Shown here piece after piece: positions 17,157 to 31,276 of a DNA stretch of 64,000 bases (positions are counted from its first letter, which is position 1; each line of letters opens with the position of its first letter). The DNA is from Asparagopsis taxiformis (taxonomy: Eukaryota; Rhodophyta; Florideophyceae; Bonnemaisoniales; Bonnemaisoniaceae), in NCBI GenBank assembly GCA_030407315.1, contig JALQPE010001860.1, positions 186,001 to 250,000 of the forward strand, read 5' to 3'. The notes beneath the pieces were generated by a model. It was not told the origin of the DNA, ran no database searches, and worked only from the letters and a program-made list of their open reading frames with translations. The position numbers and the translations under genes were made by a program.

Positions 17157-17326
17157 ATATAGGAACAATTTAAATATCTACATTGTAGATCACTCTCCCA
17201 TTCCAACACAAAAATTGCATCTGATTGATACAACTTGAATTTTAGTCCTAGTTACACATCTCAATCAAGCCACAATCAACCATATCTCAACACGCCAATC
17301 GCTCAACCTTGAAACTACGCGTCAAA

Positions 17327-18760
17327 ATGCTCGACAAGGACGCAAACGAAAGAGGCATCGCAGAAGCAATCGCCTACGCCTCATCACACGGCATAATAGT
17401 TGCCCAATCCAACCAGGCCGCGCCGGGCACATCACTGAGCCATGCGCCGATGACATACAAGCCATCGGAATTTGACGCCACATGCTACAAAGAAGCGCAA
17501 CGAATCACACCCGCACTCAACAAGCTTCTGTACCGCATTGCATGCAACCGCGCCTATCTCTCCGCCGCGCTGGAAGAAACGGCAGCCGCTGACGCAGAAT
17601 TCACAGGTCGTCTTCTAGCACTCATGCCGCTCGCACCAGCGCCTGCAACCGGCGTCGAGATGGGCATCTATCGATACGATTACTTTGTGCATGCAGAAGA
17701 CGCTGCACGTTCGCTGCGCATGGTAGAGGTGAACTGTATCGCCGCTAGTTTCGCATGTCTGGGCACGAAAACCGGCGATATGCATCGCTATCTCGCTTCC
17801 ATGTCTTTGTATGACGCCGTTTCAACGGACGCGCTGCCGCGTAATGACGCCATGTCCGGCCTTGCCACCGCGATTGCAACGGCTCATGCGCAGTACGTTG
17901 CGCTCTACGCGCCCGATGTGCGCAGCGTTGTGATGATGATTGTGCAGCCCGGCGAATGTAATGCGTATGATCAGTATCTACTGCAGACGGCTGTTTGGGG
18001 CAAGCATGGTGTGGAGTTGATTCGAATGTCGTTGCTGGAGATTCATATGTATGGTTCGGTGAATGAGAAGGGGAGATTGCGAATTGTGCATCCCAGGTAC
18101 GGACAGGAGGGAGTCGAGATTAGTGTTGCATACTACAGGGCTGGGTACACTCCGAATGACTATCCGTCTGACAAGGAGTGGCATGCACGCGAGATTATTG
18201 AAAGGAGTGCGGCGGCGAAATGCCCGTCAGTGGCCATGCAATTGGTGGGCACAAAGAAGATTCAGCAGGTACTTGATCAGGCAGGGGAAGTGGAGAAATT
18301 TGTGGACACGGAAGAGGAGGCTGCTTCGATTCGCGCGACGTTTGCAAGACAATATTCTTTATCGGCTGCTGATGGCGGTGAGAAGGCTGCACAGATGGCA
18401 ATTGAGAGGCCGGATGATTTTGTGCTCAAGCCTCAGCGCGAGGGAGGAGGAAATAATCTATACACAGACGAATTGAAGAGTGCTCTGCAGTCTATGTCGG
18501 CCAAGGAGAGATCGGCATATGTTCTGATGGAACGCATTCGGCCTGTCGTTGTCGAGAACATTCTAATTCGCAACGGAATGCACAGTTTGACAAATATCGT
18601 GTCCGAGTTTGGGGTGTACGGCGTGCATGTGAGCACCGACGGTAAGGATGTGCTCAATGGCACGGGCGGGACTTTGCTGAGGAGTAAGGCCGCCTCACAT
18701 GATGATGGTGGTGTTGCAGCTGGTGTTGCCGTTTTGGATAGTCCGCTACTTATTGAATGA
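17327..18760 (+). CDS. GSH2: Glutathione synthetase, eukaryotic type
   Basis: Joins gamma-glutamylcysteine and glycine with ATP, the second step of glutathione synthesis. The 477-residue protein has the eukaryotic hallmarks: RMVEVNCIAASFACLG (substrate-binding region), DFVLKPQREGGGNNLYTDEL (the Gly-rich triad that closes over the active site), YVLMERIRP, and near the end GTGGTLLRSKAASHDDGGVAAG (Ala-rich loop position). Length fits the family (about 470-500). The ATG at 17327 is the first in frame. No targeting leader is apparent, so cytosolic. Its functional relatives in the window are the dehydroascorbate reductase and gamma-glutamyltransferase near the right end. Confidence 0.95.
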   Translation: MLDKDANERGIAEAIAYASSHGIIVAQSNQAAPGTSLSHAPMTYKPSEFDATCYKEAQRITPALNKLLYRIACNRAYLSAALEETAAADAEFTGRLLALMPLAPAPATGVEMGIYRYDYFVHAEDAARSLRMVEVNCIAASFACLGTKTGDMHRYLASMSLYDAVSTDALPRNDAMSGLATAIATAHAQYVALYAPDVRSVVMMIVQPGECNAYDQYLLQTAVWGKHGVELIRMSLLEIHMYGSVNEKGRLRIVHPRYGQEGVEISVAYYRAGYTPNDYPSDKEWHAREIIERSAAAKCPSVAMQLVGTKKIQQVLDQAGEVEKFVDTEEEAASIRATFARQYSLSAADGGEKAAQMAIERPDDFVLKPQREGGGNNLYTDELKSALQSMSAKERSAYVLMERIRPVVVENILIRNGMHSLTNIVSEFGVYGVHVSTDGKDVLNGTGGTLLRSKAASHDDGGVAAGVAVLDSPLLIE

Positions 18761-23671: not shown

Positions 23672-24766
23672 ATGCTTCGAACAGTGCCATCGGTGATCGG
23701 CGCAACTGCCGCTCGAATACTCTATCCGAATGCGCGCACCCTCTGCCAATCCGATTCATCCTCATTCATTGGCATGCAGGATGTGTCCAAACGTAAACTC
23801 AAGCAAAGAAACCTCCTCCGCAGCCGATCACTGGACGACGGCGACGGCGTGTGCGCCGCCTACTGCACCTACACCCCCGTCTCTCTCGCGCATGTTGCCC
23901 AACACTTCAAAAACAGTTCCTTTGCAGCGCGCAAGGGGCATAACTCGGTCACATTCACAAGCGACACATCACAACTAATTTCCACCGACGCCGTGCATGT
24001 CGCTCTACAAGCGCCCACCGACGCCACGACGCACTACGGACACGCCTTCTTCTTCAGCTCGGGCGCCGCCGTGTTCTGGGGACTGCCACTAGATCTGCGT
24101 CGTCAACTACTAGACGCCGCGGCCGTATTTCAGGAGCGTCATTTCTCGTCGCCCCGGTCTCGTCTCGGGAAAACTCGTAGCGTCGAGAACGCACCCATGC
24201 GCATGGAGGACTTTGATCATGAGTTTACCTACACGATCGATGCGCATCGAAAGCGCTCCGCGTTCAAGAATGACTGCATTGAACTGGCCAGCTTTTCGGA
24301 CCCCGAACCGCTGTTGGCGCTTTCATACGGACTGGCGCAGTCGGTCAAACTGCTCACGTATGAGGAGGTTATTGACTCGCTGGTGGTTCGTACGAGGACA
24401 CTACCGGATGAACTGGCGCGGGAGGGAAAGATTCGACTGTCGCAGAAGGATCTTAAACGGCTTATTGGAGAGCTATTAGCGGCGCGTTACTCGTTGAATT
24501 TGGTCTCGGATATTTTGGATACGCCGGAGTTCTTCTGGAATCATCCGCAATTGGAACGATTGCATTTGGACTGCTCCAGAGAAGTTGAGCTTCGACAGCG
24601 TGTTCGTATTCTGGACACGAGAACACAAGTTATAAAAGATGCTCTAGATGTTTTGAATAATGAGCTTACTTCGTCGTCGTCGGACCGAGTGGAAAGAGCT
24701 ATTCTCTTCCTGATCGCAGTTGAAGTATTTCTAGAGGTTGTTCGTATTGTACCCATGGCAACATAA
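23672..24766 (+). CDS. RMD1: RMD1/RMND1 family (DUF155) mitochondrial protein
   Basis: Family needed for mitochondrial translation in animals and for meiotic nuclear division in yeast; probably an inner-membrane tether. The 364-residue protein has an N-terminal basic leader, then the family landmarks HAFFFSSGAAVFWGLP, LALSYGLAQSVKLLTYEE, RLIGELLAARYSLNLVSDI, DTPEFFWNHPQLERLH and a C-terminal hydrophobic segment (ILFLIAVEVFLEVV). Single exon. The leader suggests mitochondria, though plastid targeting cannot be excluded because algae have several paralogues. Confidence 0.88.
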   Translation: MLRTVPSVIGATAARILYPNARTLCQSDSSSFIGMQDVSKRKLKQRNLLRSRSLDDGDGVCAAYCTYTPVSLAHVAQHFKNSSFAARKGHNSVTFTSDTSQLISTDAVHVALQAPTDATTHYGHAFFFSSGAAVFWGLPLDLRRQLLDAAAVFQERHFSSPRSRLGKTRSVENAPMRMEDFDHEFTYTIDAHRKRSAFKNDCIELASFSDPEPLLALSYGLAQSVKLLTYEEVIDSLVVRTRTLPDELAREGKIRLSQKDLKRLIGELLAARYSLNLVSDILDTPEFFWNHPQLERLHLDCSREVELRQRVRILDTRTQVIKDALDVLNNELTSSSSDRVERAILFLIAVEVFLEVVRIVPMAT

Positions 24767-25709: not shown

Positions 25710-26408
25710 TCATTGAGTATAGGAAGCGTCGATTGAGCGTCTCGCGAGACCCTTTCGAAGCGTTAGCGCAAGACAAAGCAGTGCAGAGATACATAGAACA
25801 ATATCAACGGCAAGTGTAAAGTAGAACCAACCGTCCACGGAGCATTGACACAGATTGCCGGAATCGATAATTTGCTGCGGAACGGCGGTGACGCACGCAC
25901 GATTAGAGCATTCCGACGCTGCTTTCCGAATCGATAGGGCATCCAACACGGCGGCCACACAGGCAGCGATGGCGGTGAGTAGCAGTGTGATGGAAAACAA
26001 CGAGCGTGACGTCGGTACGGAGAGCAGCGAAGCGATGAGTGCAAAGGAGAATGAACAAGTAACAGCCAGGACGGACGCGATGAATCTGACGATAGAGTTG
26101 GAAGTAGGCCAGGCGCCTGGTAGCGAGTATACGAATACTTGCTCGTCAGCTACATCTGAAACTTGTTGGACGAGCTCAGGGACAGCCGAGGTCGGACGAA
26201 AGAAGGGGCGACGGGCGGGCAGTGATGAACCTACTACTGCTGTCCACCATGCTGTCCAGGTGAGGAGAAGGGTTGCAGATATCTGGGAGGAGGGCGGTTG
26301 TTAGCTGAGGCGGAGCCGACAATTATGAGGGATGGATACAGAGTTGTTTGTGTTACTTACCGAGAGGACGAAGAAAGAGGTGGCGAAACAGAAATGCGAT
26401 TTGGTCAT
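25710..26408 (-). CDS. Four-helix membrane protein, two exons, unknown family
   Basis: Exon 1 (26408-26361, 16 codons) and exon 2 (26282-25710) join across a 78-nt intron (donor GTAAGT, acceptor CAG, phase 0) to a 206-residue protein. Helices: FCFATSFFVLS plus ISATLLLTWTAWWTAVV (spliced helix 1), SIVRFIASVLAVTCSFSFAL, SLFSITLLLTAIAACVAAV and FYFTLAVDIVLCISALLCLA. The loop between helices 3 and 4 has four cysteines (CSNRACV and LCQC), and a basic tail follows. Topology is tetraspanin/claudin-like without a diagnostic motif. The first hydrophobic helix becomes continuous only after splicing, which supports the model. Confidence 0.6.
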
Positions 26409-27553
26409 GGCGGGTGTGGATTTGGTTTGACATGGGTGACGGTCGTTTCGGCTGGGGAAATGGTGAGCGGAAAAAGGTTTGGTCCTCGTTCCGTTCCATC
26501 TGTTGAGCACAGCAATGACAACGGTGCTGACAACAACGTGTTGTCATGTATTTGAATAGCAGTGTAATGAGTGGACACGGGTATTACGTGTACACGCGAA
26601 GATTGGGCGAGTGGCGTGCGCGCGACAGGATTATAGGAGCAAGGGGGGACGTCGAGGGAAGCATGTGGATAGGGTACTTGGTATCGATGCAACGGGTGGT
26701 GCGCAACAGTTGGTCGCCAAGCGACGGACGGGCGTCGCAAGGGTCGTAAGACAATTGGGGGATGGTGGTAGCGGAGTGCCGTCGGGTGAGGGGACGATGG
26801 GAAACAGGCCAATGGGCGACGGAGTCGGGATACTGTAAAGATGGCGTGGCGGGCGACGACGACGGACGGCGTGTCTGAGAAGGACGCAAATGGAGGAGGA
26901 TGGATTCGAAATGGCGATGCTCTGGGAATGCAGTTTGGAAACTGTGCAGAGGTGAAATAATAATAATTTGTGTGGCAGTATGACGAGTTGAATCAAAATC
27001 TCATCCGCGGCAGATTGTTCGTAAGCTGTGGCCCGCATTTTATTCATGTTTGAGTGGCCAAAATTCAAACAGTAGAAAAGCAATGAGAAATCTAATCGAC
27101 ATACGTGTCACTACACGTTGGCCTCTGTATGATCTTGGCGGTTACCGTTGCACTCAGCATGACGGACACTTCACTACAGAATAGCTAATAATGTCGCTGT
27201 AGGCGGCTACCAGACAGCGAAAGCCAGAGTGTCATTTCATTGCACCAATCAGCGCGCGATCTGTACAGTATCCGCATTTCAGCCTCCGTTTCGACTCTTT
27301 TCTCGCCCGACACGCATGGGGCACTTTCTCCTTCCACTACAAAAAGCCCTCGGCCAATGTGACGTGTTTGACTGCACTCGCCTTGCTGCCAGCACGTTTG
27401 CAGGATACCTCATTCCACTTGCTATCCTGGCTTCCACTAGCAATATTGAATCCATCATCCTCACATCATTACAATACATAAATCCGCACTCATCGTCGTC
27501 GTCCCCCGCACCGCGCCGCGTCGACATCCATCCCATTCTAACTCCCATCCATC
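26409..27553. other. Long intergenic region with no supported gene
   Basis: About 1.1 kb between divergent starts. Several open frames exist on both strands but their translations are Pro/Ser/Thr/Arg-rich with no recognisable character. I looked here for a P-loop exon that would give the next gene a normal adenylate kinase N terminus and found none. Confidence 0.45.
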
Positions 27554-28387
27554 ATGTCGACCACTCTAACCGCCACTCGCAATCTAACCAAACCACTAAC
27601 CGCTCTAACGCGTCTCACCGCGACGCACACAAGTGCATCGCACTCATCGGCTGCATCAGCCATGGCGCAGGGCAAATTGGTGCCCGATGCTGTGGTGTCG
27701 CAATTACTGGAGGCGCGCTTCTCCCAACCCGACTGTCAGACCCGCGGCTGGTTGCTCGACGGTTTCCCGCGCACCGCCTCGCAGGCGGCGCATTTACTGG
27801 CCGATGCCGCCACCAGGCCGCACGCCGTCATTGAAATCGTCGCCGACGAATCGGACATTCGACAACGACTCATGTATCGTCGTCGCGACCCGTACACCAA
27901 TCGTGTGTACAATATGCGCACATCGCCGCCAACCGATGCGCACATTTTCGCACGACTCGAGTCGCGCCCTGACGATGCGCCCCACGTCGTCGAGCGCCGC
28001 TTGCGTCAGTATCACGTGCAGATGCCGCCCGTCAGAGATCAGTTTCGGAAAGCAAATGTGCCCGTGATACGTGTCCAACCGCCCAGACACGCCGATGCGC
28101 AACAGGTGCATCGTTGCGTCATGCAGGCGGTGGAAACACTGCCCGTGGCGAGTAAAATTGTTCTCGCCGGTGCACCCGGGTGCGGTAAGGGCACACAGGG
28201 CGCCTTGTTGGCCAAGTCTAGTGGTGCTGTGCATTTGTCAACTGGAGATTTATTACGTGATGCTGCACGGGATGCACAGCCGGTCAGTTTTTCAAGGAGG
28301 CTTGAGAGCATTTTTGAACGGTTTGGTAATTCGTTGCCGGCCGCGCAGCGTGATGCACCATTGAGAGGTGTTAGCGCATTGCTCTAG
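27554..28387 (+). CDS. Adenylate kinase with circularly permuted domain order
   Basis: A 277-residue single ORF containing every adenylate kinase block but in rotated order. After a Ser/Thr-rich leader (residues 1-36, targeting-like), it starts in mid-domain with MAQGKLVPDAVVSQLL, then CQTRGWLLDGFPRTASQA (about 60-78), the short LID region MYRRRDPYTNRVYN, RLESRPDDAPHVVERRL, and the normal C-terminal region. Only then come KIVLAGAPGCGKGTQ (P-loop GAPGCGKGTQ at about 206-215) and HLSTGDLLRDA, which open a normal enzyme. A 34-residue unrelated tail ends the protein. All catalytic Arg positions known from the family (STGDLLR, GFPRT, RRRDP, RPDD, ERRL) are present, so an active AMP + ATP = 2 ADP enzyme is plausible. 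The break lies in the AMP-binding subdomain. Confidence 0.85.
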   Translation: MSTTLTATRNLTKPLTALTRLTATHTSASHSSAASAMAQGKLVPDAVVSQLLEARFSQPDCQTRGWLLDGFPRTASQAAHLLADAATRPHAVIEIVADESDIRQRLMYRRRDPYTNRVYNMRTSPPTDAHIFARLESRPDDAPHVVERRLRQYHVQMPPVRDQFRKANVPVIRVQPPRHADAQQVHRCVMQAVETLPVASKIVLAGAPGCGKGTQGALLAKSSGAVHLSTGDLLRDAARDAQPVSFSRRLESIFERFGNSLPAAQRDAPLRGVSALL

Positions 28388-28895
28388 AAATTTTATTATT
28401 GTTGTTGTAGATGATGATCAAGACGAGGCGGTAGCAGTGTTGGAGATGCAGGGAAGATGACAATGGTCGGTCGATGCTCTGACTCTGCACTGTGCTGGCG
28501 TTGTTGATCTTGTAATTAAAATGATTTGTTGCTGCTGACACGTTGGGTGGACCCCTGACTGTTGGCTCAAATTACAACCGCCACGTATACCACGTTTCCT
28601 GTCCTTGCAGTGTTGCCAGCTCCAATCAAAGTGTGACAAGTAGAGCGCATTCATTGTTGGAATAAAAGTCCAGCAAGGCCTATCATCACAGTAGAGGCCC
28701 ATCGGTTTGCCTCGTTGCAATGCAGCAAAAATCGAGAAAAAGGTGCCAATCTGTTGCTGCTCATTTCCTCCCGTGCGTAGTCATCCACAACGTAACGCTC
28801 CACGTCTTTACCCACTCACCGCGCTGCGCCACTCCCGCTTTCCTCGTCTATTCGCGGTCACCCAGCAGCTCTGCCGTCAACCACTCCAGTCCGTC
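28388..28895. other. Intergenic, upstream of copine
   Basis: About 500 bases. The copine frame is open upstream of its chosen ATG but the translation is not protein-like. I searched this stretch for a second exon continuing the adenylate kinase and saw none. Confidence 0.4.
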
Positions 28896-31276
28896 ATGGC
28901 TTTCACGCCGCACAACACCGCTCCGCCCTCCCCATACTACGGACATCCCGGCCCGCGCTACGACTCGCCATACACCTACCCGCATCCTCCTCCATTCAGC
29001 AACGGCAGCTATGGCTCCTTTCCGGGACTAGCCACACCACCGCCCTACCATCATCCCCCCAACCCTCATGCGCCTTTCCCCTACCCACCGCCGCCGCAGC
29101 ACCGTCCGCCCTACCCCGACAATCCCCCACCAACCGGCCCCTTCATTCCGCAGCAAAATGACCAACAGCCGCCTCGTCCGCCTCCGTCCCCCGTGCCCGG
29201 CCGCCCTCCTGCCGGCATATCCGGGCCCTTCATCCCCAGCCCCGTTGCGCAGCCCCCGCCCAAGGCCGGTCAGCACCCTTCCATCATCAACAGCTATCCG
29301 TCCCTCTACCCGCCGCCCGTCCACTACCCAAACCCGCCTATTCCGCACGCCCGCGCTCATATGCAAACAGCAGAAGTGAAACTCGAGATCGCCGCAAAGG
29401 GGCTGTGGGACCGAGATCTCACCTCCAAATCAGACCCTACCTGCGTCATCTTCCTCGAGGAGCGCTTCGGCCATCATTCCCACTTTCGTCCACAGAATCC
29501 AGACGCCTATGGTCAGGAGCGTCCCTCTTTCTATGGTGTGTCCGATCCTACCTCGATCAAGTGGCGTGAAGTCGGTAGAACAGAGTGCATCAAGAATAAT
29601 CTCAATCCCCATTTCAAAGTACAAGTCACTGTGCCCTACAAGTTTGAGGAGCTTCAGCACATTCGCCTCGGGCTCTGGGACATTGATTCCAAAAAGAGCG
29701 ACCTGCAAACACACGACTTTCTTGGCGATGTACGCACCACTCTCGGTGAACTCGTGGCCGCTCGTGTCTGGACCGCTGATTTGACGTCGTCGCGCGCGAA
29801 GGACAACAAAAACTTTATGGGCAGGAAGCGCGATTTTGGCAAAATCACTGTCATTGTACATGAAAATCGCGATGGTGGCAAAATGTTGATAAAGATGAGC
29901 ATGGCAGGACAGAAACTTGACCGCAAAGACTTCATCCGCAGCGACCCATACTTTATCGTGAACCAAGTTGGTGCAAGCTCCGCGAGCTCAGTTTCCTATT
30001 TGTATCGCTCCGAAGTCATCAAGTACAATCTCAATCCCGTCTGGAAACCGTGCCAGTTCCATGCCAATATTCCGAAGGGCGGTAACAAATCGGACCTCAA
30101 ACTCGAATTTCACGTGTACGATAAGGATAAGCGCAAGCGAGATGATGTGATTGGAGTAGCCGCATGCACACTTTCTGAACTGGAGCAATTGACCTCTCTC
30201 CCGCTCATCAATGAAGCAAAGAGGAGAAAGAAGAAGCGTCATTATAAGAACAGTGGCACTCTAGAAATCAGTAGTTTCCGTGCTCTTGCCATGCCTTCGC
30301 TTGTTGATTATTTGCAGGGTGGACTGAAATTGCATTTCAGTGTTGCCATAGACCTGACTGCTTCCAACGGTAACCCATCTGACCCATCATCGCTGCATTA
30401 TCGACAGGACCCTTACGCTGGTAACCAATACGTCAATGCACTTGTTGCAGTGGCCAATGTTCTCAGTGTGTATGCCCCGTCCGATAACCGTTTTGCTGCC
30501 TTTGGCTTCGGAGCAGAAATACCTGGGCGACCCGGTGTTGCCAACTTGTGCTTCCCGTTGGGACTTTCAGTGGATCCATATTGTCACGGCATTCAGGGCA
30601 TTCTGGCTGCGTACAACCATGCGTTGGGGTCGGTCAAGCTGAGCGGACCTACTAACTTTGCGCCACTCATCGATACGGTTTCGCGGATGGCAGCGCAACG
30701 GCCTCGCACTCAAACTGACCAGAACGTAAGTGAACATAATTTCTACTGGGCGCGTTCATATTTCCAAACTCAAGAGCTAACATGTTTTTTGACTGTTGCG
30801 TCCCCCTTCCACACAGTATGATGTGCTGTTAATCCTCACGGATGGCGTGGTATCTGATTTCGACCTCACTGTGGAGCGGATCATCACAGCAAGCAAGACT
30901 GTACCATTGTCAATTATCATCATTGGAATCGGACATCGTGACTTCAAGAAGATGGATGAACTGGACTCTGACAACGAGTTGCTCCGATCAGCAGACAAGA
31001 AGAGCCAAGCAGCACGAGGTGAGTTTCTTGTCTCATACAGTATTTGACCGTTTCCTCTGTAGGCATTGTGCTAACCATCGTGCTTCGTGATCGGATCTGT
31101 TTATAGATATTTGCCAATTTGTAGCATTCCGCGACTACGCTAACGCTCCACCAGAAAGACTTGGCGCAGCCGTACTTGCCGAACTGCCGGGGAATATTGT
31201 CGATTTCTTCGTTGGTGCTTGTGAGCCACCAATTATGCCCGGACAAGGCGCTGCTATTCCTAATATGCGGTTCTGA
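28896..31276 (+). CDS. CPNE: Copine with proline-rich N terminus
   Basis: Calcium-dependent phospholipid-binding protein with two C2 domains and a von Willebrand A domain. Exons 28896-30725, 30817-31018 and 31107-31276 give about 733 residues. Residues 1-160 are Pro/Tyr-rich (repeated PPPYHHPP, GPFIP). C2A runs from EVKLEIAAKGLWDRDLTSKSD to FLGDVRTTLGEL; C2B from LIKMSMAGQKLDRKDFIRSDPYF to VIGVAACTLSEL; the A domain from LKLHFSVAIDLTASNGNP through VLLILTDGVVSDF. The copine-specific YQALNAYEP-type segment is represented by GNQYVNALVAVANVLSVYAPSD. The Asp residues that bind calcium are present in both C2s. Introns use GTAAGT and GTGAGT. The proline-rich extension is not typical of animal copines. 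Confidence 0.92.

Follow-up and report, generated by a model that had tools for sequence, protein, structure and literature searches.

A Probable Natural Circular Permutation of Adenylate Kinase in the Red Alga Asparagopsis taxiformis

Introduction

Adenylate kinase (AK) is a main model for the opening and closing of enzyme lids and for the cooperative folding of inserted domains. Random circular permutants of the Thermotoga neapolitana enzyme, made in the laboratory by the Silberg group, are reportedly active; these are engineered and not natural proteins. The present study deals with a 64,000-nucleotide stretch of DNA from the red alga Asparagopsis taxiformis (contig JALQPE010001860.1, positions 186,001 to 250,000; hereafter, the window), in which an open reading frame (ORF) at 27554-28387 on the forward strand very probably encodes a real, naturally circularly permuted long-type AK that belongs to a conserved family. 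An original prediction, made from the letters of the window, held that a whole AK stands in rotated order within this one ORF, and that no natural example was known. In agreement with the latter statement, a search of the open-licence literature for natural permuted AKs or nucleoside monophosphate (NMP) kinases retrieved no natural permuted AK.

Natural permutation of P-loop proteins is itself known from GTPases, as reported for the YRG family (order G4-G5-G1-G2-G3) and cpRAS (order G3-G4-G5-G1-G2) (PMC2430557). The permuted AK resembles these proteins in being a natural permutation of a P-loop nucleoside triphosphatase in which the P-loop piece has moved toward the C terminus and, as described for cpRAS, in its scattered distribution (PMC2430557). 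It differs from both in that it is an NMP kinase, from another branch of the superfamily, and is cut in a substrate lid. What appears to be new is a natural circular permutation in AK, a family for which we found none described, with the cut in the substrate lid, and not natural permutation of a P-loop protein as such.

Among AKs, the permuted protein (P0001) can be compared with three kinds of relative. It has all of the motifs, the short LID and the active-site residues in common with canonical AKs (Pfam ADK, PF00406; for example 1zak and L002, the plastid-type AK of the same genome), and its C-half is 41-44% identical to the red-algal plastid AKs L002 and P0016; unlike them, it has its halves swapped, its domain ends in the AMP-binding domain and its old termini joined. 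In tandem AKs (P0179 of Rhodosorus marinus; AK8, 9fqr_G8), the C-half of domain 1, the linker and the N-half of domain 2 align in order with the permuted proteins, but the tandem enzymes also carry the outer halves, whereas the permuted ones contain the P-loop and the GFPR motif just once each. In CP-NMPcut, a permutant of the Escherichia coli enzyme cut between residues 29 and 30, the same old termini are joined and the new ends lie at the AMP-binding (NMP) domain (PMC4230728). That construct, an in silico one, is cut before the NMP domain (PMC4230728), whereas the natural cut lies inside it, at about positions 39-48 in six members of the family and up to 54 in P0132.

Rotated Order of the AK Domain

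The ORF is single and uninterrupted (277 codons plus stop). Pfam ADK matches it in two stretches, the better of which joins residues 20-167 to profile positions 32-149. The P-loop family AAA_17 likewise matches in two stretches (the better at residues 206-242), and AAA_33 matches at residues 202-243. The best sequence match in PDB is AK8, a tandem AK, with an alignment that spans the end of domain 1 and runs into the start of domain 2; the next is the maize AK 1zak, which aligns in two pieces in swapped order. Against a profile built from 18 canonical AK proteins, residues 32-194 of P0001 correspond to positions 149-305, and residues 193-242 to positions 95-144. The canonical order, with the P-loop half first, is thus absent: the halves are swapped, each supplying the part of the domain that the other lacks. 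The P-loop and the GFPR motif occur once each, in place of the two copies of both that define a tandem AK.

If the two halves belong to one domain, then returning them to the canonical order should restore a single match. The trimmed pieces of P0001, rejoined canonically, scored 197.9 bits as one domain, while the native order gave 143.2 and 47.2 bits as two. (Rotation was scored on trimmed pieces; in whole-protein rotation, leaders and tails split the matches.) In all seven permuted proteins, namely P0001 and the six relatives described below, the C-half match comes first (profile 144-155 to 286-309) and the N-half match second (85-99 to 140-144). The rejoined chain gave one match in seven of seven, and exceeded the sum of its pieces in six.

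The C-half of P0001 (residues 32-194; 27647..28135, +) runs from helix 3 through GKLVPD, GWLLDGFPRT (27746..27775, +; the region of E. coli Arg88) and the LID arginines to the C-terminal helix. A linker of 5 or 6 residues (residues 195-200; 28136..28153, +), delimited by the profile and by the predicted helix end and strand start, leads from the old C terminus to the old N terminus. The N-half (residues 201-241; 28154..28276, +; profile 95-144, 47.3 bits) consists of the P-loop strand, helix 1, strand 2 and helix 2, and contains the P-loop GAPGCGKGTQ (28169..28198, +; E. coli Lys13) and STGDLLR (28238..28258, +; E. coli Thr31 and Arg36), both recognized by sequence and profile. When mapped on E. 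coli AK, the N-half matches end at about residues 39-43 and the C-half matches begin at about 43-48 (about 54 in P0132). These positions place the break inside the NMP domain, at or close to the loop that connects its helices 2 and 3, and with a cut at this site both chain ends would form the AMP lid. Two claims of the original prediction are thereby upheld, that of a whole AK in rotated order within one ORF and that of a break inside the AMP-binding subdomain. On the other hand, the ORF does not start at GKLVPD as had been proposed, because a leader of about 31 residues and, directly after it, a helix-3 equivalent (SAASAMAQ) precede this motif.

Search for Other Pieces of the Kinase

A rotated order might be mimicked by a missed exon or by the collapse of a tandem gene. 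A tblastn search of the 64-kb window with ten AK proteins gave a best off-locus match of E 0.68, and in an unfiltered six-frame profile search of the same 64 kb the next best match after the locus had an E value of 1.5. The window therefore contains no other AK piece by either search, and the absence of an upstream P-loop exon and of a second downstream copy, as originally claimed, is borne out. A missed exon or a collapsed repeat is also very unlikely because six proteins from other sources share the order and nearly the same break. In the genome (141 Mb, 3156 contigs), one permuted locus was found, and AK-like loci with the canonical order of halves occur separately from it. The permuted gene is an extra isoform, given that the alga retains a canonical plastid AK as well as further AK-like genes.

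Active Site and Predicted Structure

Of 20 active-site positions checked, all are kept in P0001, and 16 are kept across the seven permuted proteins. The P-loop GxPGxGKGTQ with its catalytic lysine (residues 206-215 of P0001) is present in seven of seven, as are R36, R88 and Q92, and the LID and core residues R119, R123, R156, R167 and D158/D159. T31 is kept in six (Met in P0130), and P0001 has all four of T31, R36, R88 and Q92. The AMP-pocket residues M53, K57 and V59 are likewise all kept in P0001. The catalytic arginines and the P-loop lysine are thus retained, as predicted, and from these residues we infer that P0001 would catalyze ATP + AMP = 2 ADP.

An AlphaFold model of the 277-amino acid protein has a predicted local distance difference test score (pLDDT) of at least 90 at 197 of 277 residues, and a predicted template-modeling score (pTM) of 0.77. 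The N-half is modeled as a strand (202-206), a helix (212-223), a strand (226-229) and a helix (230-241); at the junction of the old termini, a helix ends at 193 and a strand begins at 202. In a VIA-align structure search, the 50 matches listed consisted of AKs and of 7n6g, a ciliary central-pair entry, and covered model residues 21-199.

Relatives with the Swapped Order

Six database proteins (P0002, P0009, P0049, P0123, P0130 and P0132), 36-58% identical to P0001, have the same order; identity reaches 58% over 224 residues in P0002, and is 41% over 242 residues in P0132. The original prediction had suggested a search for this order in other red algae, and it is indeed present in the red alga Purpureofilum apyrenoidigerum (P0049, transcriptome-derived). 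P0123 is an MMETSP transcript labeled complete. By motif order, the 219 collected proteins comprise 7 permuted (P0001 included), 180 canonical, and 32 tandem, fragmentary or odd ones, each protein search having taken the best 120 of the 8000 candidates that shared the most words. Over roughly their first 100 residues, P0009, P0049, P0123 and P0130 carry a conserved N-terminal extension that P0001 lacks; it begins with MAS or MAT (MAS.GR.GG-like), includes SRS and a DSGLS-like stretch, and is possibly regulatory. P0130 also has, after its C-half, an insertion (about residues 290-323) with no counterpart in the other six, perhaps an in-frame intron left unspliced in this predicted protein.

In a scan of prokaryotes, none of the 80 kept loci was permuted, out of at least 587 pattern matches, of which at least 574 were AK relatives. 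Sixty-three of the 80 have the P-loop before GFPR, 1 is tandem, and 16 appeared single-motif by pattern; each of these 16 gave one collinear profile match (partial in L096). Bacterial permutants may exist beyond the 80 loci.

Phylogeny and Origin

A single branch sets the seven permuted proteins apart from the rest in each of three unrooted trees, built from the C-half (support 98/90; 67 rows), the N-half (99/98; 60 rows, 41 columns) and the rotated whole domain (100/96; 59 rows). For the C-half tree, 50 of 225 proteins were chosen by hand. L001, L006, P0184 and P0203 were excluded from the other two trees as long or partial (a second piece of P0203 is in the N-half tree), and the whole-domain tree is without the first domains of P0126, P0127 and P0182, in which the N-half is missing. 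Alignment A3 is without P0175-P0178 and P0183, which have three domains. In the C-half and whole-domain trees, the family divides into two groups, P0001/P0002/P0132 and P0009/P0049/P0123/P0130; the N-half tree differs in placing P0130 with the first group (95/77). The branch of P0132 is very long, at 3.55 changes per column in the C-half tree. L002, which carries a DUF3054 domain, groups with Agarophyton and Gracilaria, and a florideophyte host is accordingly most likely.

Purpureofilum belongs to the Stylonematophyceae. Provided that the gene tree mirrors species descent, the permutation would predate the divergence of Stylonematophyceae and Florideophyceae; this age is drawn from one named relative, and horizontal transfer may also account for the distribution. 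A bolder reading, somewhat more likely than not (probability roughly 0.6), is that of one old permutation in red algae that took place before these two classes separated and has persisted as an active isoform, with an AMP lid made from two free ends.

By the textbook route, a circular permutation arises when a gene is duplicated in tandem and the outer halves are then lost. The permuted AK probably arose in this manner, a single time, before the family divided into its two sequence groups. The existence of tandem AKs in red algae (P0179 of R. marinus) makes the route plausible. In red-algal plastid tandem AKs, the P-loop spelling PG[CS]GKGTQ occurs in four of four second domains and in none of three first domains, and PGCGKGTQ occurs in seven of seven permuted proteins, which hints at a possible descent of the latter from a red-algal plastid tandem AK. 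Running counter to such a descent, however, the three-domain protein P0176 has PGSGKGTQ in all three domains; bacterial-type tandem AKs (e.g. P0020) also have PGCGKGTQ, and the trees do not unite the permuted proteins with the red tandem group.

Proposed Mechanism and Alternatives

We propose that the leader would be removed in an organelle, so that the chain would then start at helix 3 of the NMP domain. It would pass through the core and the LID to the usual C-terminal helix, followed by a short linker replacing the old termini; the P-loop strand would be inserted into the middle of the sheet, and the chain would end after helix 2 and a tail. The AMP lid would accordingly be built of helix 3, from the start of the domain, and helix 2, from its end, as two loose ends instead of a closed loop. 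ATP and AMP would give 2 ADP as usual, with the core reaction unchanged. A looser lid closure and a weaker affinity for AMP might be expected, as well as faster lid opening, with product release possibly faster than in the canonical enzyme. In the reported simulation of E. coli AK, with the termini joined by four glycines, the NMP-cut permutant had a wild type-like folding barrier (PMC4230728), and closing still mostly followed the LID-first path (PMC4230728).

Several observations weigh against the main reading, that of a real, permuted and active AK. In the same reported simulation, the NMP domain of the NMP-cut permutant was unfolded in the folded ensemble (PMC4230728), and therefore AMP binding could be poor; both simulated E. 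coli permutants also folded less cooperatively (PMC4230728). The AMP-side positions near the break vary among the seven proteins (M53 kept in 3, K57 in 5, V59 in 5 and T31 in 6). Structure searches align only about residues 21-199, in sequence order, and hardly probe residues 200-277; the placement of the P-loop half therefore depends on the confidence and the strand assignment of the AlphaFold model, whose input alignment contained 23 tandem AKs. The rejoined chain of P0132 (158.0 bits) does not score above its pieces (120.1 and 41.7 bits). Third-position guanine-plus-cytosine content is 0.62 from residue 37 to the end, versus 0.47 in the N-half (45 codons). As to the trees, that of the N-half spans 41 columns and carries a long-branch warning that concerns P0130 and P0132, and no tandem AK is a firm sister: the C-half is nearest to P0125 (97/94), the N-half to P0124 (84/83), and the whole domain is unresolved.

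An unlikely alternative is that the permuted fold is no longer an AK: with its AMP lid cut, the protein might be an ATP-binding sensor, a scaffold or a weak ATPase, or act on another nucleotide. The break between helices 2 and 3 and the unfolded NMP domain of the simulated permutant (PMC4230728) would suit such a loss, as would the variability of M53, K57 and V59 among the relatives and the very long branch of P0132, and the canonical AK-like genes retained in the genome would leave this copy free to drift. Nonetheless, R36, R88, Q92 and the LID and core arginines are kept in all seven proteins, and T31 in six. The retention of 20 of 20 positions in P0001, including R36 near the new C terminus, is unexpected under relaxed constraint.

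It is improbable, too, that the permutation is real but the protein works as a domain-swapped dimer, in which the C-half of each chain would be complemented by the P-loop half of its partner to give two-chain active sites. Short linkers, as in P0001 and P0132 (about 3 residues by profile position), can favor swapping, but those of P0009, P0049, P0123 and P0130 are about 15 residues or more, as extrapolated from profile positions. The single-chain AlphaFold model is confident, with the pTM given above, and a link of four glycines sufficed within one chain in the reported simulation (PMC4230728).

That the ORF is a pseudogene, a decaying fragment of a tandem AK, is highly improbable: tandem AKs do occur in red algae (P0179), but the frame is open, the checked positions are intact, the order is common to seven proteins, and conservation of the N-half is no weaker. 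Least credible is an artefact of assembly or annotation, by which a collapsed tandem AK lost its outer halves or an upstream P-loop exon went unrecognized; another kinase gene has a near-copy split between frames (C419:2560-3028 versus C2141), so that the assembly is perhaps not error-free, but the six relatives come from other sources, no AK remnant lies in the 64 kb, and a stop codon stands 12 bases upstream.

If P0001 is indeed a naturally permuted and active AK, it would be the first natural permuted NMP kinase, and evolution would have run the lid-untethering experiment that research on AK dynamics has so far only simulated or engineered. A natural permutant with a split AMP lid, next to canonical paralogues in the same cell, would provide an evolution-tuned test case for two claims made of AK, namely that the motion of the lids determines the rate and that the insertion of domains safeguards folding. 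It would also add a nucleotide kinase to the naturally permuted P-loop proteins, and may serve as a marker of red-algal evolution.

Layout of the Reading Frame

An in-frame TAA stop at 27539..27541 (+), 12 bases 5' of the ATG, closes the frame, the open frame being 281 amino acids long. The leader (residues 1-31; 27554..27646, +) is 45% Ser/Thr, with three basic residues, no Asp or Glu and an amphipathic stretch, and pLDDT is below 50 for most of residues 1-20; its composition makes it a probable organelle targeting peptide. At the other end, 42 residues lie C-terminal to the Arg of STGDLLR, the last 36 or so being unlike AK. This tail (residues 242-277; 28277..28384, +) has no clear homologue, and its comparison with the helix-3 region of five canonical AKs yielded nothing significant. 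As a candidate helix-3 remnant it was rejected, local alignments of the P0001 and P0002 tails with the five canonical segments being no better than shuffles at the 5% level. The resemblance of the P0001 tail to that of P0002 is weak, with the end SALL being similar to SALV; the local tail-to-tail score was equaled by 3.9% of shuffles. Rfam gave no match above the gathering score within 26000-30000.

Neighboring Genes and Other Kinase Loci

The large frame upstream of the permuted gene (23672-24766) encodes a DUF155/RMND1 protein, and that downstream (28896-30821, +) a copine-like protein with C2 domains and Copine. Farther upstream, at 17309-18760 (+), lies a eukaryotic glutathione synthetase (Pfam GSH_synth_ATP, 1.5e-102). 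This enzyme is described as a natural circular permutant relative to the bacterial one (PMC2876114), and its presence in the same window is a coincidence.

Elsewhere in the genome, an apparent near-copy of a UMP/CMP-kinase-like gene (L004, contig C2141) is split over two frames (L007 and L009, G000:C419:2560-3028), and may represent an assembly indel, an allele or a decaying copy. Another locus (L006, G000:C231, 40-2403, -) is a 788-amino acid frame that fuses an AK domain to NAD kinase (Pfam ADK, NAD_kinase and NAD_kinase_C).
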